64,000 nt of DNA, from NCBI GenBank assembly GCA_026120185.1, contig JANUWF010003367.1, positions 1,710,001-1,774,000 on the forward strand, written 5' to 3'. The notes below the pieces were generated by a model. That model was not told the DNA's origin. It saw nothing but the letters and a program-made list of their open reading frames with translations, and searched no databases. The translations under genes and the position numbers were made by a program. Shown here piece by piece: positions 4,106 to 59,420 of this stretch. The stretch is from Voacanga thouarsii. Taxonomy: Eukaryota > Streptophyta > Magnoliopsida > Gentianales > Apocynaceae. How positions within the stretch are numbered: position 1 is the first letter of the stretch; each line of letters starts with the position of its first letter.

Positions 4106-5851
4106 CTGCATTAGCCCATTCACAGTGCAGGGCAGTGTCTATGTGTGCCTCTCAGTTTTCAAAGATTGATTGATAGCCAAAAGTGATTCCATGATCAATT
4201 ATATGATTCTTCTCTTTCACACAGAAAAGCATTTCGAATCCTTTCGCAATATGAATGTTTGAACATCGTAGATGATTCGAGGTGATAAAAAGGATCATAT
4301 TTATTTCAAATTCAATCCCTTTTTTCTTAATTTAAAAAACTAAAAAATAATATTATTTATGTGATTTCGACATAACTCTAATTTTATAAAAAGTATATGG
4401 TCATATTATGAATACTTGTTATTCATCAATGTTATCTAAAAATGATGTATAGTCAAATAAGAAAATATAAGAAATGATGCTTAAAAGATTTTATATGTGA
4501 CCTTACATTATTAATTTAAATTAATTAATTTAAGATTATTTTAATGAGTATGTGATAGAATACTTAAAAACGATTCATATGAGATTGTAACTCAGTGAGT
4601 ACTATCACAAGTAGTACCATCACAAGAATGAGCAACGTCTAAGAACGAGAGTGGCAATTATAAGGGAAGACAAGCAAATCCATTATTCACTTAATCAACA
4701 TAGCTCAAGCTAAATTATTGTATTTCTAATTCTTCTACATTATATGTAATTTTCATAGAAGCACTTGGAAAGTGATGTATGTTGCAAAATCAGAGGAATG
4801 GAGATGTTGAAGAAAAGGCATTCTTGCTTACAAGAAAATGACCGACAATTCAGTTGGGCTAACATCCATCCTTTTCCATCCACATTTTCCTTTCTTGCTT
4901 TCATGAAGTTAAGCTTAATAGAAATTGTATGATGAATGGTTATTCAAATTGCTATTCAACTTATAAAAACCTTAACGAAAGGTGGTAAAAAATGCTAGAT
5001 ATTTGTACAACATTTTAGTGAAATTCTAACAAAAATGACAAGTTAGAAGAAAAAAAAACATCGATTACAGACAAAATGAGATTCGAATGGCAATATGTTG
5101 TTTGACAATAATTTTCAGGTGAGAAATTAAAAATTTTCTTGGTCTCTTATACACTCAAGTGCAAGAATTTTTATTGAAAGTGTTATATATGTATACTCAT
5201 TTCTTATTTCGTATTTTTAACTATTTTTTTCGATTGAAAATAATTGTCATATCAATAATTTTTTCCTTACAAATTATACGTCTTTTTAGATATTAAAAAT
5301 CTTTATTATATTTTAAAAATCTATCTTTGCTGTTATGTTATTTCAAATGTTATTATAGAGAATCTAAGAGGTTAGATTATCTTAACCATATACATCACAT
5401 TTTGAGTAATAGAAATATTTTAAAGAATTTGAAAATTAATGTCGAACTAAAATAATTATTAAAATATTTTTATGATCAACACTTTTTATTAGATAAAAAT
5501 TTTTAATTTAATTTATATTCTTAAATTCTTATTATATTAAAAAAATGGGAATGTAAAAATTAATACCTAAGTTGCTAAAAAAAAAAAAAATCTTTGCAAA
5601 AAAATACACACCTTTTAGGAGGAAAATCTTTAAGTTCATATATTAAAGGAAATATTGCTTTAAAAAAAGAATGAGGTAGTTAAATTAAGGGAAGTTTTTA
5701 AGGTCCTAAATTGCAATTTTCCACGATAAGAAAATAGGTGAAAAATCATTACGGAAAAAAACACACCCCTAAGAGAGGTTATACCCGCCGACGACGGTCC
5801 ATCCTGGTCTTCCCCAACCTTTCCTCTCTTCCAACTTTTTTCAGCTGGAAA
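4106..5851. other. intergenic and upstream region of the F-box gene, no gene seen
   Basis: AT-rich DNA without coding signal. The last ~150 bases carry the probable promoter and leader of the downstream F-box gene. The frame that extends this gene upstream from 5,738 is rich in Lys/Arg and unlike the family, so I treat it as leader. Confidence 0.4.
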
Positions 5852-6946
5852 ATGCCTGACACCACCGCTACCAGCAGCAGCCAACCAGCGCCGGACTCTG
5901 AATCTCAGCTTATTCCAAATCTTCCCGATGATGTTGCTTTGAACTGCATAGCGAGAGTCCCGAGGTCCTTTCACCCTAATCTCTCACTAGTCTCAAAGTC
6001 GTGGCAATCTACCGTACGCTCTCCTGCATTCTTTACAATTCGATCCCTGCTACAGACAACTCAGACTTCCCTTTTCCTCAACCTCCGTATCGGTTCCTCT
6101 TTTCGTTGGTACTCCTTCCTGCCAAATTTCTCAAAAAACCCACAAAAGTCCCTTGTTCCTCTGCCTCCAATCCCCTCCCAGCCTGTCGGGCCGGCGATTG
6201 CAGCTCTTGGCCCGAAAATATATGTAATGGGTGGCTCGGTTAATGAAATTCCTTTAAATTATATGTGGGTTTTCGATTGTAGGTTTAACAGATGGGAGTC
6301 CGGCCCGAATATGAGGGTGGGTAGAGAGTTTGCTGCGGCAGGGGTGGTTGGTGGGAAGATTTATGTAATGGGTGGGTGTATTGTTGATAATTGGGCCCGG
6401 TCGATGAATTGGGCTGAGGTTTATGACCCTGTAGCTGAGACTTGGGCCCCAGTTCCCAGCCCTATTGAGGTGAGGGAGAAGTGGATGCATGGGAATGCAG
6501 TGATTGGAGGGAGAATCTATGCAATGGCAGACAGAGGTGGGCTGGTGTATGATGTAGGGTTAGGGGAGTGGGGGAATGTGCCCAAAAGGCTTGATTTAGG
6601 ATGGAGAGGACGTGCAACAGTGGTGGGAGAAGTGTTGTATTGTTATGATTATTTGGGAAAGATTAAAGGTTATGATGTGGAGGTTGATGCTTGGAAGGAG
6701 TTGATAGGTGTGGAGAAAGGGTTGCCTAAGTTCTTGTGTGGTGCAACAATGGTGAACTATGATGGGAGGTTGTGTGTTGTTTGGGAAGGGAAGGCAAGTG
6801 GGAAGGAGGTGGAGATTATGTGTGCAGAGATTGACGTTTGGCAAGACAGAGATGGAAAGTTGAATGGAAAGATTTTGTGGTCTGATGTAATTCTTGCTGT
6901 TCCTAAAAGGTCAGCAATTGCACATTGCTTGGCAGTTCGGTTCTGA
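5852..6946 (+). CDS. SKIP6: F-box/kelch-repeat protein, SKIP6-like
   Basis: An intronless frame of 364 codons. I start at the ATG at 5,852, because the F-box begins about 18 residues later and upstream codons (from 5,738) are unlike the family. The F-box covers residues 18-60 (LIPNLPDDVALNCIARVPR, then LSLVSKSW), the part that binds Skp1/ASK proteins in SCF ubiquitin ligases. Kelch strands follow: GPKIYVMGG (120-128), REFAAAGVVGGKIYVMGG (158-175), EVREKWMHGNAVIGGRIYAM (206-225) and later weaker units; these form a propeller that usually picks the substrate. The order and conserved phrases (CRFNRWESGP, LDLGWRGRA, VLYCYDYLGKI, AHCLAV) fit the Arabidopsis SKIP6 group. The protein looks intact. 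By family knowledge it would act in the cytosol or nucleus; its target is unknown. The 3' flank carries splice-like signals (GCAATAGCAG|gttatg at about 6,972; gctgcag|agactg at about 7,142), so a spliced 3' UTR is possible. Confidence 0.88.
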   Translation: MPDTTATSSSQPAPDSESQLIPNLPDDVALNCIARVPRSFHPNLSLVSKSWQSTVRSPAFFTIRSLLQTTQTSLFLNLRIGSSFRWYSFLPNFSKNPQKSLVPLPPIPSQPVGPAIAALGPKIYVMGGSVNEIPLNYMWVFDCRFNRWESGPNMRVGREFAAAGVVGGKIYVMGGCIVDNWARSMNWAEVYDPVAETWAPVPSPIEVREKWMHGNAVIGGRIYAMADRGGLVYDVGLGEWGNVPKRLDLGWRGRATVVGEVLYCYDYLGKIKGYDVEVDAWKELIGVEKGLPKFLCGATMVNYDGRLCVVWEGKASGKEVEIMCAEIDVWQDRDGKLNGKILWSDVILAVPKRSAIAHCLAVRF

Positions 6947-7822: not shown

Positions 7823-10360
7823 ATGCCTCAGACAATTTATGCCGACTTATGGGTCATAGACTCTGGTGCCACAGACCATATGCCTCCTACATCTCAACTC
7901 TTCCACACCTATACCCAATGCCCAAGTAACAGACAAATTGTAGTGGCCAATGCTTCTTTAGCTACTGTTGCGGGGTCCGGAGATATTCATATTACACCTA
8001 CCCTTGTCCTTAAAAATGTCCTTCATGTGCTGAAACTTTGACCACCCTTGGTTACATTCAAAAGCTTACCTGTGATCTTAAATATTATGCTATTTTTTCC
8101 CCTTCTTATTGTGTTTTTCAGGAACAAGACTCGGGGAGGAGGATTGGACTTATTAAGGAAAGAAGTGGCCTTTGTTACCTTGAATCATCTCAAAAGGGTA
8201 GGAGCAGTTTATCCACTTCTTTTCTCAGTTCATCCATCATTTAGGACTCTAAAAATCATGCTTCCTCATTTGTGTCAAGGATTAGATATCTCTGAATTTC
8301 ATTGTGACATTTGGGTAGAGGTTGTTCTCACTGCCACATACATGATAAATAGACTTCCCTCATATTTGTTAGACAACAAAAGTCCTATAGATATCCTTAG
8401 TAGTTTCTACCCTCATTTCCGAACCTCTAATGGTCTTATACCTAGGATATTAGGGTGCCCTGCCTTTGTTCATGTCCACAATCAACATAGAAGCAATTTA
8501 GATCCCCGAGCAATCAAATGTGTCTTCCTGGTTACTTATCCAAGTGCTACCACCCTTCCTCTAGAAAGTTTTACATCTCACCAAATGTCAGCTTTGCTGA
8601 AAATACACATTTTTTCTTCAAGTCCTCTCTTTAGGGAGAGATTTCAATGATGGAAGATAGTACTTGTGGGTCCTTTGAACCAATTAAAACTCTTGTTCTT
8701 CCTCATGTTCCAACCCGTGGTGCTAAACCCAAGTTCTTTGATTCAATCACAAGTGAGTCTCCTAATTTTGCCATTGAACCTGAGTCATCACCTAATTCTG
8801 CCATTGAACCTGAGTCATCACATAATTCTGCCACTGAATTTGAGTCATCACATAATTCTGCCACTTATCCCAACTAGCGTCAATCACAATTTTCCAAGGT
8901 TCTCTCAAGTGTATTCAAGGAGAAAGGCCGTTCCAGAGCTGACACAATCTGTTGAAATCTCTAGGGAAAAACATTGTTGATTTCAAGTAGATTTTCACAC
9001 TGAAATACAAGGCTGATGGATCCTTTGAGAGATATAAAGCATGATTGGTGGCCAAAGGATACACTCAAACCTATGGTGTTGATTATCAGGAGACATTTGT
9101 TCTAGTGGCCAAAATGCATACTGTGAGAATTTTTGTTATCATTGGCTGCTCACTTCAATTCGCAACTTTTATAGTATGACATTAAGAATGCATTTCTCCA
9201 TGGTGACTTAGATGAAGAAATCTACATGAACATCCCACCAGGATTCGATGTGAACGTAAGTAAGAAGGTGTGTAAGATGAGAAAAGGCTCTTTATGGGTT
9301 AAAATAGTCTCCCAGAGCATGGTTTGGGAGATTTGCAAAAGTTATGAAAGATTCTGGGTATAAACAAAGCCAAGGTGACCACACTCTCTTCATTAAGCAT
9401 TCAGTTGCAGGGGGAGTAACAACTCTTCTAGTCTATGTGGATAACATTATAGTAACTGGAATGACAAGGGCGAGAAACACGAGTTGAAGAAAAGACTAAT
9501 GAAAAGAGTTTGAGATAAAGGAATAAGGGAAACTAAAGTACTTCCATGGTATTGAGGTGGCATGTTCCAGACATGGGATCTTTATATCCTAACAGAAGTA
9601 TGCAACTGATTTATTGACAGAAACAAGAAAGCTAGGGTGTAAGCCAGTCTCTACCCCAGTGGATCCAAACTATAAGTTAGGAGAAGCAAAAGAAGAACCA
9701 GCTGTTGATGAAAGAATGTATCAGAAGTTGGTTGTGACTCATATACCTTTACTTACACCCGGCCAGACATAGTACACTCAGTGAGTGTAATTAGTCAATT
9801 CATGCATGATCCAAGAGAATCTCATCTTCGTAGCTTACAGGGTGCTAAAAGGGATTTTGTTCAAAATGAATGATGCTCTTGCTCTAGAAACTTACACTGA
9901 TGCTGACTATGTAGGTTTCCTAGTAGATAGAAGATTAGTCACGGGATATTATACTTTTCTTGGAGGCAATCTGGTGACATGGAGAAGCAAGAAGCAGAAT
10001 GTAGTGGCAAGGTCATCTGCAGAATTAGAATTCAGGGTTTTTGCTCAAGGACTGTGTGAACTATTCTGGCTAAAGATTATTCTAGATGATTTGAGGGTCA
10101 AATAGGAAGGTCCTATGAGGCTTTATTGTGACAAGTCAGTTAGCAATATTGTTCACAATCCTATACAACATGATAGGACAAAGCATATTGAAATTGATAG
10201 ACATTTCATTATAGAAAAATTGGAGGAAGGGTTAGTATGTATGTCCTATGTTCCATCAAAACACCAATTAGCTGATGTTCTAACAAAGGGGCTGAACAGT
10301 TTGAGTTTCCATGATCTTGTTTTCAGGTTGGGAATGGAAGACATCTATTCCTTAGCTTGA
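7823..10360 (+). pseudogene. copia gag-pol remnant: protease, integrase, RT, RNase H
   Basis: Domains in copia order across several frames. Retropepsin shows VIDSGATDHM near 7,850. GAG-pre-integrase (KLTCDLKYYAIFSPSYCVF) is near 8,060-8,130. Integrase core and C-terminal pieces (TATYMINRLPSYLLDNKSP, LGCPAFVHV) cover 8,280-8,600. A proline/serine linker with short tandem repeats follows at about 8,768-8,870. Reverse transcriptase is at 8,990-9,720 (NAFLHGDLDEEIYMNIPPGF). RNase H is at 9,806-10,360 (VARSSAELEF, DRTKHIEIDRHFI, QLADVLTKGL). The RT active site reads YVDN near 9,437 instead of YVDD, losing a catalytic aspartate. Several frameshifts and stops make it non-functional. Confidence 0.85.
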
Positions 10361-26559: not shown

Positions 26560-27010
26560 AAGAAAAGGACATGAACAGTACCCATCAAACTTCAAACAAT
26601 GGCTACAACAGGGTTGTCTCCCTTGTGCAACAGAGCATTTTTTTTTTTAATTTTAATTGTTTTTTTAATGGATGAGGGGTGATGAATAGTACCCCTCGTC
26701 AAACAACCAAAACAAGCCTTCTGTTAATATAAATGACGTGGGGACATGGTTGCTCCCACAAGTGACCAAAAACAAGGCACAAGTAACGCTCACAAAAATT
26801 AAATTAATTTTTTTTTTGTTGGGATCATTAATCCCCACATTGAGCAACATACCTAGAATTGCAAACACGGGCTATACAATCACTTCAAAATCGATACTGC
26901 CCCAACGGTTTTTTTTTCCTTTATAAAAAAATTTCAGCAAAGTGAAACTAAAAGAAACGGAAACCTCAGAAACAACTAACAATGACAGAAGCTCCCAATA
27001 ACAACAACAT

Positions 27011-27267
27011 TGTTATGAATTATTGGAATTTCCATTAATTAGTGGAGGTTCCACTAATTATGGATTTATGTGAATTATTAGAAGATTTTTATGGATGTCC
27101 ACCATTTAGTGGAGACACCATTATTTTGTGAAGGAAAGATTAGTGAAAGAAAGATTAGAGAAAATTGTGAGATAAAAGAAAGAGAGAAATTCTTGTACAA
27201 AATAGTTAGAGTTTTATTAGTGTGTAGTGTGAAGATTTTATTCTAACACTACCCTAATTTTATAACA
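27011..27267 (+). repeat. 5' LTR of the young copia element
   Basis: It runs from TGTTATGAATTATTGG to CCTAATTTTATAACA, followed directly by cgttatcagcacgag, the usual position of the primer-binding site. It contains an inverted pair, attagtggaggttccactaat.. in its first 40 bases. Confidence 0.92.
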
Positions 27268-27940
27268 CGTTATCAGCACGAGTCTCTACCGTTATTAAAG
27301 CCAGAAGACAGGTACGCATTTATTGATCTCGCTAAATTCGAATTTGTAGCCCTTGATATTTCGAAAAAAAATTATATGTCATACAGAAATGTATCTAAAT
27401 GCTAAAAAAAAAGGAGATCCATATGTCATGTGGATAAAAAGAAAGATTTGACCACTCGAAGATGGTCGTACTACCTATCGCACGGTATGAATGGTTGCAC
27501 CTGAAGTTGCAAGATTGTAAAACCGTGAACTCCGTGATGTATAAAACTACATATTAGTTAAAAAATTTTGCAGAGAAAAAGTTACTGATAAAGTTATATT
27601 GGAGAAGACATTCTCCACTTTTCATACCTCGAATATTGTCCTGCAAGAATAATATCGAGAAAAATGGTATCCCAAATTGACAAATTTAACATGAGTTATT
27701 ATTGAGAAATCATGAAGCTGGATGAACCGGCTCAACAAGCACTCCGAAGTGAATGTCGTTGGCTCCAGCAGAAGCCATCGTTATAGTTGTAGTTGTGGCA
27801 GTGGCCGTGGTTATGGTCATGGACACACTCGATATTTCCTTATCACGGAGAAATATTGGCCACCTGAAGTGGAACAGAAAAGATAATAAGGGAAAAAGAT
27901 ATTTCCATTAATAATAAGCATCACATCTTTTATTCATATC
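27268..27940 (+). pseudogene. copia gag remnant
   Basis: Pieces in shifting frames match copia gag of the AAK-LTR-Gag type: FVALDIS near 27,340, a capsid piece near 27,600 (LEKTFSTF-like codons), then VNVVGSSRSH and a Gly/His-rich SGRGYGHGHTRYF stretch near 27,750-27,835 that normally precedes the zinc knuckle. Stops and deletions are frequent. The gag similarity fades by about 27,940, where the antisense RKD segment begins. Confidence 0.6.
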
Positions 27941-28166
27941 ACTAGTGTTCATATGAACTTGATGATACATGCTTATAGTTGCTCTTTTGTAATTGAGTCG
28001 ACAAATGTAAGATGAAGGTTCGTAATTGTTCTTTTTCAATATTTACATTAGAGGACGACAAACAATTAGTAATTATGGACTTCAACTCCTCTTTTTCGAC
28101 ATCCTCCTCCTTTTCTTTCCCCTTTGAGCCAAGCATCGAAACTAGCGAGCAGAATTAGCCGTAAAA

Positions 28167-29340
28167 TTACTCGCGAAATGAGTCTTGAGATTTTATGATC
28201 TCCTTAAGTTTATTATATTTCTTATTATATTTGGCCTTGAAGCATGCTTGTCTCAATTTCTGTGTTTGGTCCTCTAACTGCGTATTAGGACTTTCTTCTA
28301 CCAACTGTTTTTCACATTCCAGATATCGCAATGGCTTCTTTTAATTTCTTCTCGCCCATATGTCCTCCTTCTTCTTTATTTTGCATATCCCGTAAATCGA
28401 AGTGATATCATCGGTTATTTACTTATAAATCTTTCATAGTTTCATACTTGCAAATAATAAGTATGTATGAGAGAGAACCCGGACATTCTTGATTATGGTC
28501 TCCAAGCTCACCAATTTCCTGTGAGGCCATCGACGAATTCCTAACTCCCTACATCTTTTCTTGAGACGGGTTATGCCAATATTCGGTTCTTTGGTCGCGC
28601 TCATGATTGGTAGGTAAAAGTATCTGCGAAATTGTTTCTCTTGATAGTGTCTGGGAGTTATTGCCCTTCTTCTCTCTCTGCCTCTTAATCATCTTCTTCT
28701 CCCCAAGAATTTTGTCTGCAATAATATCTTGAATTTCGATATTATGCATTTCATGAGTACTTACTCCGACTTCGTTGTCAAGACCACTCATTATTTCTCC
28801 TAGAAAAATAAAATAATATCGATAAAGGTAATACCATTCAAAATCCATGTTTAAATGGATAATAACCTGGAATCATATTCTGGCTTTGTTCAAAATCCAT
28901 TAGAGAGTAGAATAGATCATGCACAAGCATATCCTCATTAAAAGGAATAGCATCAAGAGGAACAGTATCAAAAGCAGTCTCTTGTAGGGGCAGATCAACT
29001 TGGTCCAAAGCAGTATGTTCAAAACTTCCAATGATTTACATAAAAAACAAACCAAAAGAGAGTTTAATTTCATTATCAAGCACACTAAAAACAAATGGAA
29101 GCCCTCAAAGGTATTTCACCTGAAATTAGGAGGAAGCGGTTGGTATGGAAAGGAAAACATATCAAAATCTTCTGCGTTCGAATTAGGCGTAAGCGGTTGG
29201 TTTGAAAAGGAAAACATATCAAAATCTTACGTGTTCGAATTAGGCGAAGCGGTTGGTTTGGAAATGAAAATACATCAACATCTCGCTGCAGAAACTAAGT
29301 CAAAATTTGACCATGTCTCAAATGAATTACGAGTCTCCAT
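28167..29340 (-). pseudogene. RKD-like: RKD-type RWP-RK transcription factor gene, captured in the copia element
   Basis: RKD proteins are plant DNA-binding factors of egg cell and gametophyte identity. On the minus strand, exon 1 (29,340-29,120) starts METRNSFETWSNFDLVSA and carries three 57 bp repeats. Exon 2 (about 29,020-28,867) reads ALDQVDLPLQETAFDTVP, then LVHDLFYSLMDFEQSQNM. A clean intron (gttatt...ttttctag) leads to exon 3 (28,799 to about 28,479) with a basic stretch and the RWP-RK domain: YFYLPIMSATKEPNIGI, LKKRCRELGI, and RRWPHRKL at 28,535-28,512. The last part reads LEDQTQKLRQACFKAKY and ends in TAA at 28,169-28,167, the usual leucine/coiled tail. Damage: a +1 and a -1 shift and a TAA in the exon 1 repeats, a 1 nt insertion before YFYLP, and a frame change before ECEKQLVEE. 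The gene is antisense to the host element and keeps an intron, so it was taken up as unspliced or genomic sequence. Confidence 0.85.
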
Positions 29341-29640
29341 ATCTGCTTTGTGATTTTTGTATTTGATGTTTACTAATGACTGATAACTGATATATATATC
29401 GATACATATATATATATATCTGTATGAGGAAGAAGAAGAGGTAGATGGTAGGTAGAGGGTCGGAGGAGAAGAAAAGATAAGAGAGGAAGAGGAAAAGTCG
29501 GTACCGGGAAGAGTGAAAAAAAAAGAGATATTTTTCTTGGTATTTTCTGCTTGTCATCATTTTCTTATATTTCTTTTCTTATTCTCTTGTGAAATCATTA
29601 TTCCCTAAATTAGGGGAGAACCAAAACAGCATAAAAAAGA
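29341..29640 (-). promoter_or_regulatory. leader and possible promoter of the captured RKD gene
   Basis: Upstream of the RKD ATG there is a TA-rich stretch (about 29,390-29,421) and a pyrimidine-rich leader-like run (CT-rich on the minus strand, 29,425-29,520), features common in plant 5' UTRs. Copia coding similarity only resumes at about 29,650, so this stretch probably came along with the RKD gene. Promoter activity is inferred, not shown. Confidence 0.4.
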
Positions 29641-29649
29641 TCGTGATTA

Positions 29650-31775
29650 GACAACATCATTAAATTATCTTGATCCACATACAAGCGCGTGTGAACTTGA
29701 AGTTCAAAAGATAATTCATTTGTAAAGCATTGCAAATCAAATGCCAGACACTTTTGTTGACTCCAGAAGAGTTACAAAATCGTATATTCCAGCTATAAAT
29801 GCTCCTATTCGAATTGAAGTTCCAGCAGAACAAAATATTATACCTATAGCTGCTGAGTCAAAAACATGCCAGAAGCGTGGCCGACCTCTTGGTTCTAAAG
29901 ATAAAAATCCTCGAAAGAAAAGAGGATTAAATGATCCGAAGATCATATTGAAGAAAAGAATGATAAAGACCAAGAGAGAACCGATGACAAAGAACCGAAG
30001 TTGATGAAAGTAACACCGAAATTTCTATCAATTATACCACTTCCGGTAGAAGTTGGAATCGGATAGAAACTGTTATTGATAATATATTTGCATACAATAT
30101 ATCTCTTGATGTTACACAGGATAATGATGATCCCGAACCAATATCGATTGATGAATGTCGGCATAGAAAAGATTGGCTGCAATGGAAAGATGCGATTCAA
30201 TCGGAGTTAAATGCACCGGCAAAACGTGAAGTCTTCGGACCTGCAGTCCGAACACCGAAAGGTATAAAACCTGTTGGCTACAAATGGATATTTGTGCGAA
30301 AGCGCAATGAAAAGAGTGAAATCGTTCGATATAAAGCGCGATTAGTAGCCCAAGGTTTTTCACAAAGACCAGGTATTGATTATGATGAAACTTATTCTCC
30401 TGTTGTTGATGCTATTACACTCCGATATCTTATCGGTTTGGCAAGTACATGAAAAGATAGATATGCGCCTATTAGATGTTGTCACTCGCTTACTTGTATG
30501 GAAATTTAGAAAATGATGTTTACATGAAAATCCCCGAAGGATTTCATATGCTTGAAGCATATAAACATTATCCTCGTGAAAATTACTCCATCAAGTTGCG
30601 TAAATCATTATATGGCCTGAAGCAATCCGGGCGCATGTGGTTCACACGTCTTAGTGAATATTTATTGAAAGCGGGATTTAAAAATGACCAGGTATGTCCA
30701 TGCGTTTTTATTAAGAAATCTGGTTCTAAATTTGTGATATTAGCTATATATGTTGATGATATTAATCTTATTGGAACTCTCGAAGAGCTCCAAGAAACAA
30801 TTGATTATTTAAAAAGAGAATTCGAAATCAAGGATTTTGGTAAAACCAAATTTTGCCTTGGTTTACAAATTGAACATTTGGAGAGTGGAACATTTATTCA
30901 TCAATCAACATATACAAGCAAAAGTGCTAAAAAGATTTTACATGGACAAAGCACATCCATTGAGTATTCCAATGATCGTCCGATCATTAAATGTGGATAA
31001 AGATCCTTTTCGACCTCAAGAAAATGATGAAGAACTCATTGGTCCTGAAGTACCATATCTCAGTGCAATTGGTGCATTGATGTATCTTGCTAATAACACA
31101 CGGCCCGATATTGCTTTCGTTGTCAATTTATTAGCAAGATTTAGTTCTTCACCAACACGACGACATTGGAATGGAATTAAACAAGTCTTTCGATATCTCC
31201 AAGGTACAATTGATCTCGGATTATTTTATTCAAATAAAACCAGTCCAACATTGATAGGTTATGCAGATGTCTGGTTATTTATCCGATCCACATAAAGCAC
31301 GTTCTCAAACGGGCTATCTATTTACATGTGGAAATACTTGCTATATCATGGCGTTCTACGAAACAATCTATAGCAACTACTTCTTCAAATCATGCTTGAA
31401 ATTATAGCCATTCATGAAGCAAGTCGAGAATGTGTATGGCTAAGATCCATGATTCATTATATCCGAGAAAGTTGTGGATTATCATCAATCAAAGGTATTC
31501 CAACTCCTCTTTATGAAGACAATGCAGCTTGCATAGCTCAATTACGAGGAGGATATATTAAAGGAGATCGGACAAAACATATTTCACCAAAATTCTTCTT
31601 TACTCATGAACTCCAGAAGAAATGTAAAATTGATGTGCTACAAATTCGGTCATGTGACAACCTCGCAGATATTTTCACGAAGACTTTACCGACTGCAACA
31701 TTTGAGAAGTTGAGATATAAAATCGGTATGCGTCGGTTTAAAGATTTAAAAGAATCATCTTATCAGGGGGAGTAA
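29650..31775 (+). pseudogene. copia pol remnant: integrase end, RT, RNase H
   Basis: It opens with the integrase C-terminal phrase LNYLDPHTSACELEVQKIIH (with a stop after it) and VDSRRVTKSYIPAINAPIRI, then KRGRPLGSKDKNPRK. RT follows from about 30,130 (YKWIFVRKRNEKSEIVRYKA; RLVAQGFSQRPGIDYDETYS), the tract LRKSLYGLKQSGRMWF and an intact YVDD near 30,751. RNase H runs from about 31,200 (SQTGYLFTCGNTCY; YEDNAACI; LADIFTKTLP) to the TAA at 31,773-31,775. At least four frame changes (about 30,004, 30,450, 30,930 and 31,280-31,390) prevent a single polyprotein. Confidence 0.85.
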
Positions 31776-31899
31776 TAAACAGACATATAGAATAGTGTAC
31801 TCTTTTTCCTTCACTAGATTTTTTTCCCACTGGGTTTTTATCTAGTAAGGTTTTAACGAGGCATATTCTTTATGTAATGGATGGACATCCAAGGGGGAG

Positions 31900-32156
31900 T
31901 GTTATGAATTATTGGAATTTCCATTAATTAGTGGAGGCTCCACTAATTATGGATTTATGTGAATTATTAGAAGATTTTTATGGATGTCCACCATTTAGTG
32001 GAGACACCATTATTTTGTGAAAGAAAGATTAGTGAAAGAAAGATTAGAGAAAATTGTGAGATAAAAGAAAGAGAGAAATTCTTGTGCAAAATAGTTAGAG
32101 TTTTATTAGTGTGTAGTGTGAAGATTTTATTCTAACACTACCCTAATTTTATAACA
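31900..32156 (+). repeat. 3' LTR of the young copia element
   Basis: Same length as the 5' LTR with three substitutions. It starts immediately after the AAGGGGGAG polypurine tract and is followed by the AACAT duplication. Confidence 0.92.
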
Positions 32157-33219
32157 AACATTTATTTTTCTTTTCTTTCTTAAACTAAAACGATACAGAT
32201 ATCAGAAAGAACAGCAGCCAATGATTGCAATTTTTTAAAAAATATATTAAATTCAGAACATTCGTATTAAATTCTTTTTCAAAGAGGAATCATACTAAGG
32301 CTTTGGCTAATTGATATTAGTTCCCTAACTATTATATCCCATTAGGAGAATGGCTAGAACAAAACCAAGTATAATATTCCCCTAGTAAGGGCCAAACAGA
32401 AAACTAAGTATTGTATCTCCTTAGCTATAGGCCAGTATGCAGAATTGTTTGAAAAGTCCCCACCATCACCACCCTAAAGCATTAGACAACTTATGTATCA
32501 GAATTCAATACAAAAACAAAAATTTTCATGAAAACCATAAATTTAGTACAGAACACTCATATTAACCTTATTATTAGAATCATCTAAAGTATCATACTCA
32601 ATCTAATTTGTATACTAATATAAGTTTTTTATGAATTTCATAACAGAAGCAAAACTGAAGCAGAAACCAGAACTAGGAATGAACGGAAAGTGCATAAAAG
32701 CTATATCCCCCTTACCAGACAATCCCATAAATTACAACTCAACAATTCAAACAACTCCTAAAACCCACCACAATTTTTCAAGCACCTGCAAACTCAGACA
32801 TCAATAACCCTATTAGAACCATCAGAACTCAAAAATTCCTAAATTAGAATCCTACAACCCTAATCTAATTCTCAGAATAAAAAACCCTAGATACCAATTA
32901 GATCCTAACAAAAGTATAATGGAATCGAAAATTACCAAAATCCGTAGCCTCAAGCTCCATTTCTTCCCCTGGCACCTCTTCTCTATTATTCTTATTCTCT
33001 CCCAAAATTGCCTCTGCAACGTTGGTATCATTTAGTTAGAAAAATAACGTAATTGACATACCTAATAAAAGTAAATCAGTCTTAATAATAAGTTAATTGT
33101 TAACAAGCCCCTAAATTAATTCCTCTAATAATTAAGTCCCCACATCACATGGGCTCAAATACAGACAAAAGTAACTATAAAAAGAAAGGGCCCAAGGTGG
33201 AAAGAGCCGTGGGCTTACA

Positions 33220-38760: not shown

Positions 38761-40201
38761 TTATAACATCTTTTTGCTTGATTTGATCCCCGTTTATTAA
38801 TTACATCAAGATATTGTGGCGTTTTAGGTTTACTGCTTCAAGATATTTGCAAATGATTTTTGGGACCTATAAATATAGACTTCCTCAATATTAAAAATAT
38901 AGAAAAGCTGAAATTAAATTGCTCGAAGGGATATAATTTTGCAGAGAAGCTTGTTTAATGGCCGTAGACCAGCCTTATGCTTATTCTTAGGTATTCTTAG
39001 CTGCATTTTAATTGATTTTTTCTTTGTCTACCGCTATTTTAATATGAATTATACAGTTGGTTATTCAATTTATTTCCTTTTAATTCTAGTTTCTTTTTTT
39101 AATGCTGGAGATGGGTCTTGATACTTTTTTCCTTGCAAATCTTTGATTCTGTTGTGCATCTAAAATTGTTTTCATGCTTTGGTCTGTTGAAGTTTCACTA
39201 TTTGATGCAACCTTATTTTGGTTGTTCATTTCTTCTGACTTAGATTTGCATTTTTTGATTTCTAATTTTTATGCTATGTTACAATCAATAGTGTTGAAAG
39301 ATAGATGCCATCTTTTCATTTATCTGCCTTGTAATCGGTTAAATAGTTTCATTTTTCTCAAAGGGAAAGCCCTAGTTGCTTTAATTTGTCATGTTTATTT
39401 TGTGATTCACTTGGATCTTATTGAGCAAGCATTTGGATACATTTCATTGTAACGTATTCGAATTATCAATTTGTGCTACAACTAATTGATTTTTTGTGAT
39501 GATGAATTTTGTCACTAAATGATAAAAATTAGTGACAAAAACTTTTTTGGAGCTTAAAATCATCACATGTAGTTATCTTAGAATGTTTTTGTGACATAAT
39601 CTTAAATTTGTCACGAACCATTTTCCGGATGAATAAGTTTCGGTCATGACAAGTGAGCTTTTTTTTTTCCAACCTTCTTTTTTTTTTTTAACAGGTTAAA
39701 ATTTATTTACATTTAATCTTGAGTCATATTAAATAATTTCACTATAACGATAGTTATGAATTGTGGGAGTGAATGTTTAGTTGATACATTCCTATATGAA
39801 TTAGAATGGGGGTTTTATTATTTTAACAAACAATTTTCACTATACGAATTATGTGTTGAAATAAAAATGCAACTTAATAATGTGTTTTGGAAGAGGACCT
39901 AGTTGGATGAGCAAAGGTTTACTTGGAAATTTGTTATAAACATGATTGATTGAATTGCATAATTGCGCATTTTAAGGTGGCCTAGTGCCTGGAAAATATT
40001 CATTTTATAAGGAAAACTTTGTCAAATTTTTTTCAAAATTTTTTTCTCTCTTGATTAGTTAAATCTTTTATTTTCTCTCTTTTAAAAACTCTCAAGATAT
40101 CTTGACCTATTTCTAAAAATTTCATTTCCATTCATTCTTGAATATGTTTATTATAACGAAACTTGTAGATCAACTAAAAATATGGATAAATGAATAGGAA
40201 G

Positions 40202-43200
40202 ATGGACCGATCGTGGATTAACTTACAAGACCGCTTTTGTGATGAATATAGTAAAGGTCTGGATGCCTTTGTAGAATTTGCGCTAAGAGATAAACCCAAT
40301 GGATCCAAAATCTATTGTCCTTGTATGAAGTACCAGAATAGATATCTTTATGGTACAATAGATGTAAAACAGCATTGCCAAATGCAGGGTTTCATGCATT
40401 GGTACAAAAAGTGGAGTGTTCATGGGGAAATATACTTATCTTCTCACAATACACCTAGCAACATCCCTTCGACTGAAAACGAACATGGGGATGATGCGGT
40501 TGGGATGCTTCAAGATATTGGTGGCATTAGTGACTTCAATAATGCAACTGAAGAGCCTGATGATTTGAGAGAGATACGTGAATTGTTGGGAGAGGCTAAT
40601 GTAGAATTGTATCTTGGTTGTACTAAATTTTCTTCACTTTCATTTATTATGAGATTGTTACATTTAAAAGTCCTAAATGGGTGGTCGAACAAGTCAGTTG
40701 ATATGCTACTTGAGCTTCTAATGGATGCTTTTAGTGAGATGGGAGTGAAAATTCCTAAGAATTACTACGAGGCTAGTAAGATAACGAATGTGTTAGGAAT
40801 GGAATGCAAAGTCTGGGATGCTTGTCCAAATAATTGCATAAGATATAGAGGGGAAAATGAGGCCGCACAACTTTGTGAGGTATGCAATGCTCCGAGGTAC
40901 AAGAAAGAGGGCAGTACAGTTGCATGCAAGCGTGTTAGATATTTTCCATTGACTCCGAGATTGAAGCGATTGTTCATGTCTCGCAAAACTGCATCCCTTA
41001 TGAGGTGGCATCGGGAATGTCGTGTGAAAGATGGAGTCTACAGACACCCAGCTGATTCTAAGGCTTGGAGAAAGTTTGATGAGTTGCATTTGGAATTTGC
41101 AAATGACTGCCAAAATGTTATACTTGGATTGGCTTCGGATGGATTTAGTCTGTTTTCAAATATGCACATACCACATATACTTGGCCAGTTGTTTTAATAC
41201 CATACAATTTGCCACCCTGGCTATGCATAAAGCAACTTTATTTTATTCTGTCAACTCTCATTGATGGCCCGAAGAGTCCGGGAAACAAAATTGACGTATT
41301 TTTACAACCATTGATCGAGGAGTTGAAACAATTGTGGCTTGACGATGTGCTTACTTATGATGCTGAGGCAAAAGAGATGTTCCGTCTGCGTGCAGCTATT
41401 ATGTGGACCATAAGTGATTTTTCAGCGTATGGTAATCTCTTTGGCTATAGTGTTTATAACCAGCGAGCTTGTCCGATATGTGGTATCAACCGTTTGTCTT
41501 ACCGTTTGCCTAATGGTGGTAAATATTGCTTCTTATATCATTGTAGATTTCTTCAACCATCACACAAGCTCCGTAGGGACAAAGTTTCTTTCTATGGTGG
41601 AATGGAATTACGACAAGCACCAAAAAGGTGTACGGGGATAGAAATTTTGACATATCTTCAGGGTTGTTTAACAGAATATGCAGTAGATGATATGAGAATT
41701 AGAATGCAGACTGACTACGAACGGAAGTTTGGCATAAATTCTTATAATTGGAAGAAGAAGAGTATTTTTTGGGAGTTGCCATATTGGGAGAGTAATTTGA
41801 TGAGGCACAACTTGGACCCGATGCATATTGAGAAAAATTTTGCAGATAATTTGTTGTTTACAATATTGGGTGATAGTACTTTTTCAAAAGATAACTTCAA
41901 AGCTCGTTAAGACCTGCAGGCAATGAATATTAGAAAGTCTTTACATCCAATTTTAAAACCGTCTGGAACTGGATACAGTTTGCCACCAGCTCCTTATACA
42001 ATGAGTCGGTCGGAAGTTGAAGTTTTTTTTTACAATATTAAAGGAATTGAGAGTCCCCGATGGCTATTGTTCAAATATTTCTCGACTGGAAAATATGAGG
42101 AGAAAGACATTAGGAGGTTTGAAGAGTCATGATTCCTACATTTTACCCCAGCAGTTAATCCCGTTAGCAGCCCGCACAACTTTGCCCAAGAATGTAGTGC
42201 AACTTTTGATTGAGATTACTTCATGTTTTAGGCAGTTGTGTTCTAAAGTCAACAAAGAGAGGCATCTCGAGTATCTTCAAGACCGTTTCGCAGTTACACT
42301 CTGTCTTCTTGAAAAGACATTCGTCCCTAGTTTTTTTTATATAATGGAATATTTACCGATACATTTGGCTGATGATGCATTATTGGCTGGTCCAGTTCAA
42401 TGTCAATGGATGTTTCCAGTTGAAAGATACTTGAAAACTCTCAAGTGTTACGTGCGCAATCGTGCTAGACCTAAAGGTTCGATAGCCAGTGGATATTTAA
42501 TGGAAGAATGTATGACATTCGTGTCGAGATATTTAGATGATGCTGAGAGCAAAGAGAATAGGCCTTCACGATATGTTGATGATGACAACCCGATGGGTAA
42601 ACCAGTTGGAAAAGAAATTGATGTAATATTTGATCATTTAACATTGATGCAAGCACATCGGTGGGTTTTAGCTAACACTGACATCCTTAAACTTTATAGA
42701 GAGTCAGTGTTCCTTTGAATCATTATCTTTCATTTTTTATACTTCTTTCATTATAACTTCTAATATTTCACGTGTGGTCTATTTGCAGTCTTCACATATC
42801 TGTCATAAATAGAGAGCATCCAAGATCTCGGTTACATGATAGACAACGTATTCATTCTCAAACGTTTCACAATTGGCTCAGTCATTATGTAAGTAAAAAC
42901 AAAGATAATATAGCAAGTTTTCCTCTACAACAATTAGCCTTTATAACACTTATACTTATTATAGGTTGATGAGAATGAAGAATGCCCTGATATTCCTACT
43001 GAAGTTAAAAAGCTTGTAAACGGTCCTTTCAATCAAGGATTGCGCTATAATGCATGCAACGTGAATGGCTTCCGATTTCGTACAATAACATACGAGGCTA
43101 ACAAGTCAACCTAAAATTCTGGCGTCATGTGTAAAGCTGATACTACGAGTTATTCCAGTCCAAGAGATATGAATCCCGTAGCAGCTGGTGTCAATTACTA

Positions 43201-43627
43201 TGGAGTGCTTACTGATATTATAAGGATCCGATATAGTAGTGAACTGAAATTTCTGTTATTCAAATGTGATTGGGTTAATGTTCATCGAGGTGTTAAAGTT
43301 GATGAACTAAAGTTTACGTTGGTGAATCTGAACCGTTTGTTGTACCGGGGAAATAAAGAGATGGATGAGCCATTCATTTTAGCAAACCAAGCGGAACAAG
43401 TTTGGTTTTCTAGCTGTCCTAAAGAAAGAGATTGGCATGTGGTAATGCCAATGATAAGAAGAGATAATTATGATGTGTATTCAAGGGACTATAATCTAGA
43501 AACTTTTCCTGCGCAGCAGTTAGATTTTCGTCCTGTTTCGCGTGAAGTAGATGCCGTATGGGTTAGAGATGGGATTTCTGGGGAGGAAGTAGATTTAGAT
43601 GGAAGAAGAATACAACCTCCAATTTAA
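40202..43627 (+). pseudogene. TNP2-type CACTA transposase, interrupted
   Basis: Transposase of the En/Spm superfamily, which cuts and rejoins element ends. I start at ATG 40,202 (MDRSWINLQDRF), the family's usual start; four extra codons lie upstream. Order: transposase-associated N-domain with CPCMKYQN (about 40,310), TNP2 core (WSNKSVDMLLELLMDAFSE; CEVCNAPRY; LTPRLKRLFMSRKTASLMRW; then TYDAEAKEMFRLRAAIMWTI; NQRACPICG; HNLDPMHIEKNF), a DUF4218-like part (LPIHLADDALLAGPVQCQWM; PVERYLKTLKCYVRNRARP) and a DUF4216-like end (NYYGVLTDIIRIRYSS). Likely exons: 40202-42702, 42789-42888, 42965-43627, phases consistent. Breaks: a frameshift near 41,165-41,200, TAA at 41,908-41,910, a frameshift near 42,100, TAA at 43,112-43,114. 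Confidence 0.88.
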
Positions 43628-58194: not shown

Positions 58195-59420
58195 TTATCT
58201 TTGGTGATCCTCATTCTCAGTTGTACTTATAGTTCTTTTAGTGTCTACGTTTAAAAATTCGTTGACGTCTGACTGCATATTTTGTTGTTGACAATCTTCG
58301 ATTCTAATCCAATCATCTAAACGTGATTGAATTTCAACAACCTCTGGTGACATTCTTGAGCAAGCTTTGCTCAAAATGTTTCCTCTAGTAGTAAAGGCTT
58401 GTTCTACCGCAATGATTGAAATGGGAACAACAAGAATCTCCTTAGCCATTAGTGATACAATAAGAAATTTATTCCCATTTTCGACCCACCATTTTAATAT
58501 ATCAAAATTTTCACCTATATCACTCCATTTCAAATTCTATCATGGAACTTAAAGATCTTCTTGATCATGTTTCACCTTTCTAACATAAGAAGCTTTATTT
58601 TGTTAATCCTTTCAAATTTGAATACTGGATTTTCAATATTTTGAGTTGTTTGGACAGCTACACCATACATTCTGGACTATTCATTATATAAGTCACAAAA
58701 AATATTCTTTACACCGGCTATTATACAAGAAATATCAAGAAGGGATATAAAATCCTGAGTACTACTATCGCCATCATCATTATTATAGTTATTATTATCT
58801 TTTGAAAATAAAGAATTATAATAACAAGTAAGATAATCTTGTAAACCGTCCATTCTCATATATAGATCAAGAACACTAACAACTAAATTAAGGTAAACTA
58901 TTTCTAAATAATATTTTAACTATTTAGTTTTTATAGGATTAATAGAAGGAGACAAAAAAGCATCACTAGAATTTTTATTAAAAGCACTACACATTCTTGA
59001 ATAATTAAATGTGTAGTAGGGTAATAAATATCAAATAAATTATAAGTAACATCATTAAATATTTTTAAAATATTTAAAATACATTCACAAAAATTCTATT
59101 GTTAATGAAATAAATGAGTTCCAACAATTCTATTTGGGAAAAAAACACATATAAATTCTTTATATAGAAAAGATTTATTTAGCAATTCATATGTTGAATT
59201 CTATCTATGTGGGACATCTTTTGAAAATTAGTTGGGTTTCATACAATTACATCTACAAAATTGGCTCCATTCTTTTTTAGCGGCAGGCTTAAGCCATAAA
59301 TAAGAAAAAGCGGCTTTTATTGGTTGCATATAAAAATTAAGACTTTTTAAACCATTATGTACGCATATGTTTAAAAAATGGCATATACATCCAACATTGA
59401 AAACATTTATCTCCAAAAGT
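58195..59420 (-). pseudogene. hAT-superfamily transposase remnant
   Basis: The minus strand carries scattered pieces of an Ac-type transposase: an RCCAHILNL-like piece (GCICHFLNICVHNGLKSL, about 59,390-59,335), a middle piece with DYLTCYYNSLF (about 58,840), and a well-kept dimerisation domain at 58,530-58,290 (DILKWWVENGNKF, LMAKEILVVPISIIAVEQAF, LSKACSRMSPEVVEIQSRLD). The last is the C-terminal region essential for hAT oligomerisation. The ATG at 58,533 is only the first in this open stretch, not the gene's start. Stops and shifts separate the pieces and no N-terminal BED finger is seen. Confidence 0.78.

Follow-up and report, generated by a model that had tools for sequence, protein, structure and literature searches.

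Maize Bs1 and similar long terminal repeat (LTR) retrotransposons transduce host sequence in the sense orientation and without introns, and Grande, RIRE2 and Retand are gypsy-type elements with an accessory open reading frame (ORF) on the antisense strand. In the parts of the literature available to us, retrotransposon-transduced genes are described as usually lying in the gag-pol sense and having a copy number of one or a few, many of those captured in sorghum as still functional, and the origin of most antisense accessory ORFs as still open (PMC7264820), while the segments captured by Bs1 are described as being without full-length ORFs (PMC13317346). The same kind of excerpt places the antisense ORFs of maize Grande (gene23), rice RIRE2 and Retand (TRP28), which recur across many copies, between pol and the 3' LTR, mentions no clear similarity to known proteins and proposes that they encode a nuclear or DNA-binding protein that regulates the element (PMC7264820; PMC11963269). 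Here, we analyze a stretch of 64,000 nucleotides (the window) from Voacanga thouarsii in the Apocynaceae (contig JANUWF010003367.1, positions 1,710,001 to 1,774,000), which contains a copia-type retrotransposon that carries a complete RKD gene of the RWP-RK family in antisense orientation.

This element combines gene capture with an antisense accessory ORF and departs from the described examples of each. Like Bs1 and other LTR transductions, it holds host gene sequence between its LTRs that has moved with the element, but the gene is complete, antisense, interrupted by three introns and present in about 2,700 copies. LTR elements are known to multiply host genes, but thousands of copies of one gene were not met in the portions of that literature available to us, and the main text of the report considered uses none of the words intron, antisense, orientation and transcription factor. 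Like Grande, RIRE2 and Retand it carries an antisense ORF across many copies, but this ORF stands in the place of the integrase, between gag and the reverse transcriptase of a copia element, and the host gene family to which it belongs is clear. A literature search judged by titles and the beginnings of abstracts found no report of the capture of an RWP-RK or RKD gene by a retrotransposon. Among retroviral antisense proteins, HBZ is to our knowledge not a captured host developmental gene and has a different origin. The likeness of the HBZ-type proteins consists in an antisense-coded nuclear regulator within a retroelement, as stated in the available text (PMC11963269). In the citrus gene CitRKD1 with its upstream miniature inverted-repeat transposable element, a transposon is also associated with an RKD gene and with an effect on the origin of the embryo, but there a small DNA transposon lies beside a single host gene, whereas the present element carries the gene itself; most RKD genes are, according to the same excerpt, expressed mainly in reproductive tissue, and RKD genes regulate the egg-cell expression programme (PMC6090715).

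The window copy spans 27011-32156, with two 257-bp LTRs that mismatch at 3 of 257 sites (99% identical); both the intact LTRs and the AACAT duplication named in an original prediction from the sequence alone are present (Table 1). Between the gag remnant and the reverse transcriptase, the minus strand carries an RKD gene of four exons and three introns, from about 29340 to 27942. The RWP-RK domain (PF02042) was recognized by Pfam in one open piece of the window minus strand (E 2.7e-17), a strong profile match, and in the intact copy L036 (E 9.6e-21), and RKD proteins of other plants match the minus strand from their N-terminal through their C-terminal parts. The gene structure was derived from a comparison of 30 copies, which are those closest to the window copy and not a random sample. 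GT/AG dinucleotides are present at all six splice sites in 24 of these; the window copy is among the six exceptions, several of which are, by eye, changes at CAG. Exon 1 contains a 57-bp repeat, a multiple of three, in about three tandem copies at 29124-29283.

The original prediction of an intron-bearing RKD gene captured antisense within a copia element is supported. The gene had been called almost complete, with one GT-AG intron and an end at 28167. The antisense RKD gene stands, but it is complete and has three introns: the C-terminal similarity continues past 28167 to about 28038, the stop at 28167 is an internal, in-frame interruption, and in six intact copies the frame ends at the position of window 27942 or one codon further. 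The limits of the RKD segment have likewise been revised, on the left from 27940 to a junction at about 27920-27942, and on the right from about 29650 to 29587, which was chosen because two integrase-bearing copies align with the window from that position.

Integrase-bearing relatives of the element exist in the genome. Two loci that contain the reverse-transcriptase word and have no exact RKD word nearby, L054 and L055, carry the end of an integrase followed by the same pol and are 92% identical to the window from 29587 onward, and an SH3-like integrase domain was recognized in L055. The integrase-bearing version of the junction site was found as 3,928 words genome-wide (at most 3 mismatches; 0 for the reversed word). 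In the window pieces scanned with Pfam, the copia-type reverse transcriptase RVT_2 was detected on the plus strand and no protease or integrase domain was found; on the gag side, seven short pieces gave zero matches. The chimera is classed as non-autonomous, since RKD replaces the integrase end and the scanned pieces hold neither a protease nor an integrase domain. It had been predicted that both the retropepsin and the integrase core were replaced. Comparison with L054 and L055, both read at the right-hand side of the replaced stretch, confirms that the integrase end is gone; loss of the protease is inferred. The assignment to copia agrees with the SH3_retrovirus integrase end upstream of the same pol in L055 and with the element ends TGTTA..TAACA in 17 of 19 copies with paired LTRs (L034 and L041 differ).

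The chimera occurs in about 2,700 copies and has been active recently. Single words were counted throughout the 1.35-Gb genome with mismatches allowed and the reversed word as a control (0 in each case), which gave 2,749 for RKD exon 1 (at most 2 mismatches), 2,684 for the right RKD/copia junction (at most 3) and 5,365 for the reverse transcriptase (at most 2); word counts are not element counts and two haplotypes may be present in the assembly, but the order of magnitude is evident. Of the 46 places on contigs C2-C194 that match the exon-1 word exactly, 24 are accompanied by an exact match to the reverse-transcriptase word at a distance of 1.6-1.74 kb and in the orientation expected. With a length of about 5.3 kb per element, we estimate that the chimeras account for about 1% of the genome. 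When the genome was searched with segment 27940-29650, 42 matches were obtained (40 of 3,657 candidates scored), the majority covering the full length at 93-97% identity; they include sister chimeric elements of the kind that the original prediction had proposed to look for, and its suggestion that the carrier could spread RKD copies agrees with the roughly 2,700 RKD-bearing copies counted. In a Pfam search of the genome, 150 of 3,618 RWP-RK candidates, chosen by top score and hence not at random, were all above the cut-off with a stop-free domain.

Both junctions (at most 4 mismatches) are shared by all 30 copies checked, which therefore go back to one capture event. A chance origin is excluded by the 2,684 right-junction words, against 0 for the reversed word. 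Flanks were available for 21 copies (the window copy and L031-L050), and paired LTRs could be resolved in 19 of these (not in L038 and L046). The LTR distance within copies ranges from 0 to 0.0138 with a median of 0.003, six of the 19 pairs are identical, and exact 5-bp target duplications flank all paired copies except L043 (18/19). The chimera has therefore moved recently, and some of the insertions are very young. The capture predates this spread, because an older sister chimera, L053 (G000:C503:1434200-1436300), has only 79-83% identity in RKD and 79% in the gag part; it has, by eye, a single exon-1 repeat unit.

We lean, at somewhat better than even chances, toward the explanation that this is a non-autonomous retrotransposon moved in trans, in which RKD has been kept as an antisense accessory gene after one capture. 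A single event would have put the complete gene (leader, four exons and three introns) antisense into a copia element in place of a stretch that began where gag ends and reached the end of the integrase. The capture may have involved an RNA antisense to RKD, through read-through or a template switch, or else the repair of DNA, and the junctions do not decide between these routes. The chimera, lacking integrase, would then be moved by its integrase-bearing relatives, the putative suppliers of the enzymes. Because the element RNA would carry RKD as the complementary strand, the introns would remain unspliced and survive each cycle. Selection on the lineages that leave copies would keep the RKD frame while the pol remnant drifts, and a frame kept under such conditions would imply that RKD works as an antisense accessory gene. 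Within reproductive cells, the protein might act on behalf of the element as a transcription factor, with the potential benefit of raised LTR transcription or of an opened cell state where new copies are inherited. A more specific proposal, that the antisense RKD protein switches on the element LTR or an egg or embryo state so that copies are made in the cells that pass them on, is one that we put forward tentatively and regard as rather doubtful.

Support for selection comes from the ratio of nonsynonymous to synonymous substitutions (dN/dS), computed after the removal of codons that adjoin CWG or CG; CAG and CTG are the CWG context of plant CHG methylation. In the 30 copies, the filtered ratio was 0.36 (0.24-0.53) in the RKD frame vs. 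0.91 (0.51-2.05) and 1.16 (0.70-2.00) in the shifted frames, and in the six intact copies 0.26 vs. 1.04 and 1.57. For pol, the corresponding values in 19 copies were 0.62 in frame vs. 0.68 and 0.61 in the shifted frames, and there is therefore no frame-specific constraint on pol. Outside CWG and CG contexts, we observed 90 nonsynonymous, 46 synonymous and 4 stop variants, where the noncoding spectrum predicts 147, 50 and 14. Among the variants present in at least two copies these numbers were 31, 20 and 0, with an expectation from the same spectrum of 75% nonsynonymous (p 0.02) and 6.6% stops (p 0.03), and the singletons (59, 26 and 4) showed no clear departure from expectation. We consider this to be moderate support, and not proof, that the predicted RKD protein is under selection.

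An open RKD frame of about 380 amino acids is found in six copies, L024, L033 (in which two splice sites are altered), L036, L037, L040 and L043. As assembled, the other 24 of 30, the window copy included, do not read through RKD. In the window copy, the frame is broken by short indels and stops, and most of its indels are suspected to be base-calling errors because 7 of 8 short indels are located at CAG/CTG. Over the 30 copies, 134 short indels (1-2 nucleotides) fall at 47 places, 30 of them at CAG/CTG vs. 15% expected (p 2e-14), and the sole exon indel of at least 3 nucleotides has a length of 6. Six of seven other trinucleotide sets showed no excess at p < 0.05; the seventh, GCA/TGC (p 0.001), overlaps with CAG/CTG because of GCAG and CTGC. 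Likewise, 41 of 77 short-indel places in the pol part of 19 copies are at CAG/CTG vs. 11% expected. The simplest reading would be a systematic base-calling error at methylated sites, and many copies are probably intact and methylated. Methyl groups are known to make nanopore base-calling harder, although the available text does not say so of CWG specifically (PMC7501810), and a search for literature on nanopore errors specifically at CHG found none. We rejected the notion that the window copy is simply an old pseudogene, given the clustering of its short indels at CAG/CTG. In this assembly, gene models that lie in methylated repeats are to be distrusted, as seen in the RKD part (30 copies) and the pol part (19 copies), and there is a wider warning that intact transposon genes may look dead in assemblies through errors at methylated CWG sites.

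A serious contender, to which we nevertheless give less than an even chance, is that RKD is passive cargo, caught once and copied as neutral filler, with an apparent constraint that stems from mutation bias, methylation, unevenness in synonymous rates and a sample made up of window-like copies. Many observations weigh against the accessory-gene explanation, and several of these are in line with such cargo. These include the broken frames of the 24 copies as assembled and the indication from the CWG errors that the copies are methylated and hence silenced. Furthermore, the ratio vs. the older sister L053 is higher (0.46-0.57), and the frames differ less when unfiltered: 0.39 for RKD vs. 0.64 and 0.91 in the shifted and 0.65-0.89 in the antisense frames, and 0.32 vs. 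0.46 and 1.50 in the six intact copies. In the same 19 copies, RKD at 0.39 (0.24-0.67) is not significantly below pol at 0.62 (bootstrap p ~0.10) and is below shifted frame 1 with a bootstrap p of 0.07. As regards accessory-ORF conservation across copies, six open frames out of 30 and a ratio of 0.36 vs. 0.91-1.16 are thus to be set against p ~0.10 relative to pol. Pol may also be under some constraint: unfiltered, four pol pieces have ratios of 0.41-0.56 in frame, the lowest of the three frames in three of the four, and some copies hold long open pol stretches of up to 417 amino acids. With CWG and CG included, the shared variants number 72 nonsynonymous, 51 synonymous and 2 stops. The low ratio of RKD owes part to high synonymous diversity, the sample consists of window-like copies, and the failure of most copies to read through is ascribed mainly to base-calling error on the basis of the assembly. 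Finally, any transcription of RKD from the element is hypothetical. The constraint on the RKD frame is moderate. Against neutral cargo, on the other hand, speak a frame-specific low ratio that persists without methylatable contexts, zero stops among the 51 shared variants outside CWG and CG, the multiple-of-three length of the exon-1 repeat along with the 6-nucleotide exon indel, and, in 24 of 30 copies, a full set of six splice dinucleotides.

In a phylogenetic tree built without NLP proteins, the element RKD groups with L053 and the intronless copy L051 in a single clade (support 100/95), sister to an RKD-like protein from Catharanthus (98/94) and apart from the proteins from Coffea and Cinchona. 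All 120 protein matches listed carry PF02042, and most of the named ones are RKD or RWP-RK proteins, one being Nin-like. None of the listed proteins is a close match: the ten best matches to L036 among them have 40-46% identity over 54-90% of the length; identities up to 62% extend over only about a third. No relative of the RKD protein was found in PDB, where the search gave one irrelevant chain at E 0.96. The parental RKD gene was not found, and three loci were rejected as the parent: L052, with the top PF02042 score in the genome search, is a different RWP-RK gene, L053 is the older chimera and L051 is intronless. An intron-bearing, stop-free RKD match at G000:C591:1751257-1751976, which covers 83-273 of a Coffea protein, is a candidate parent, and its span is about that of several intronless copies. 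At G000:C486:1180762-1182463, two RKD-like loci lie in head-to-head orientation, and both have two matching exons that are free of stops.

RKD copies without intron 3 were found by 51 spliced-junction words genome-wide, including G000:C817:3446959-3447519 (L051:1960-2520). In a DNA search (40 of 1,964 candidates scored), the long matches had 85-91% identity to the query and ended repeatedly at the same positions (for example 91-561, 89-523 and 104-541), and they may be processed copies or parts of other repeats. The idea that the antisense orientation explains the survival of the intron is consistent with the element and is strengthened by the contrast with these separate intronless copies: sense messages seem to have given rise to the latter, while antisense capture seems to have kept the introns.

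Another possibility is that the element transcript, with RKD in antisense, is a source of small RNAs directed at the RKD genes of the host. The element RNA is complementary to RKD by construction, the window RKD segment and a related intronless copy share exact matches of up to 24 nucleotides, and antisense CitRKD1 abolished nucellar embryogenesis in one transgenic citrus line, according to the accessible portion of that report (PMC6090715). However, the exons are only about 81-83% identical to L051 in the two longer matches, and selection on a protein frame would not be expected under this type of control, which we think improbable. Still less credible is that the RKD segment arrived as another mobile element (Pack-MULE, Helitron or LTR element) nested in copia. 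The motif CATCA occurs near both ends (27919-27923 and 29655-29659) and other genomic RKD copies have recurring ends, but the right CATCA belongs to copia sequence because integrase-bearing copies carry it too, and integrase sequence is missing rather than split. A nested DNA transposon was rejected, since none of ten inverted-repeat pairs in 27700-29900 joins the two ends. That the assembly is wrong here, or that a single replacement followed the insertion at this site, has only the general risk in repeats in its favour and is refuted by a junction that recurs thousands of times in the assembly (judged from copies, not reads), by a reversed junction control of 0 and by target-site duplications at independent places.

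Table 1. Features of the RKD-carrying copia element, in window coordinates.
Feature	Position	Strand	Basis or remark
Target-site duplication AACAT, left copy	27006..27010	.	Read from sequence
5' LTR (TGTTA...TAACA)	27011..27267	+	About 100 bp less than sister copies read
Presumed primer-binding site adjoining 5' LTR	27268..27282	+	First 16 bases alike in 14/19 copies
Decayed gag part of copia element	27283..27930	+	Position and homology to older sister L053
Left junction copia/RKD	27920..27942	.	Found in 30/30 copies; L053 longer here by about 100 bp
RKD exon 4, C-terminus, interrupted in window copy	28389-27942	-	Comparison of 30 copies
RKD exon 3 with RWP-RK domain	28799-28479	-	Pfam and comparison of 30 copies
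RKD exon 2	29024-28867	-	Comparison of 30 copies
RKD exon 1, start ATG at 29340	29340-29120	-	Comparison of 30 copies
RKD leader/upstream sequence with TA-rich run	29341..29587	-	Right limit from L054/L055 alignment
Right junction RKD/copia	29587..29588	.	L054 and L055 align with window from 29587 onward
Remaining copia pol: tail past integrase SH3 domain, reverse transcriptase (RVT_2), presumed RNase H; frame broken	29587..31775	+	
Polypurine tract adjoining 3' LTR	31886..31899	+	14 bases alike in 18/19 copies
3' LTR	31900..32156	+	
Target-site duplication AACAT, right copy	32157..32161	.	Read from sequence

Elsewhere in the window, an intact F-box/kelch gene similar to SKIP6 is located at 5738-6946, with 86% identity to a database protein and 74% to Coffea arabica. 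The end of another retroelement integrase (SH3_retrovirus) was identified at 8048-8647 on the plus strand, and a hAT dimerisation domain at 58198-58533 on the minus strand. Four open stretches at 40190-43627 contain the transposase pieces Transpos_assoc, Transposase_21, DUF4218 and DUF4216, which we take to be of the CACTA type.

Gene capture and antisense accessory ORFs are both known, and this element shows where such an ORF came from: a host transcription-factor gene, complete and with its introns, was captured once, the two junctions are fixed, the copies number in the thousands, some of them very recent, and integrase-bearing relatives are still present. Whether antisense ORFs help the element thereby becomes directly testable. 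A single plant genome contains potential RKD genes by the thousand, from a family that elsewhere controls egg identity and clonal embryo formation. If the RKD protein does act in the germline as proposed, the element would hold a germline key, and about 2,700 RKD genes could feed back on the egg and embryo fate of the host.

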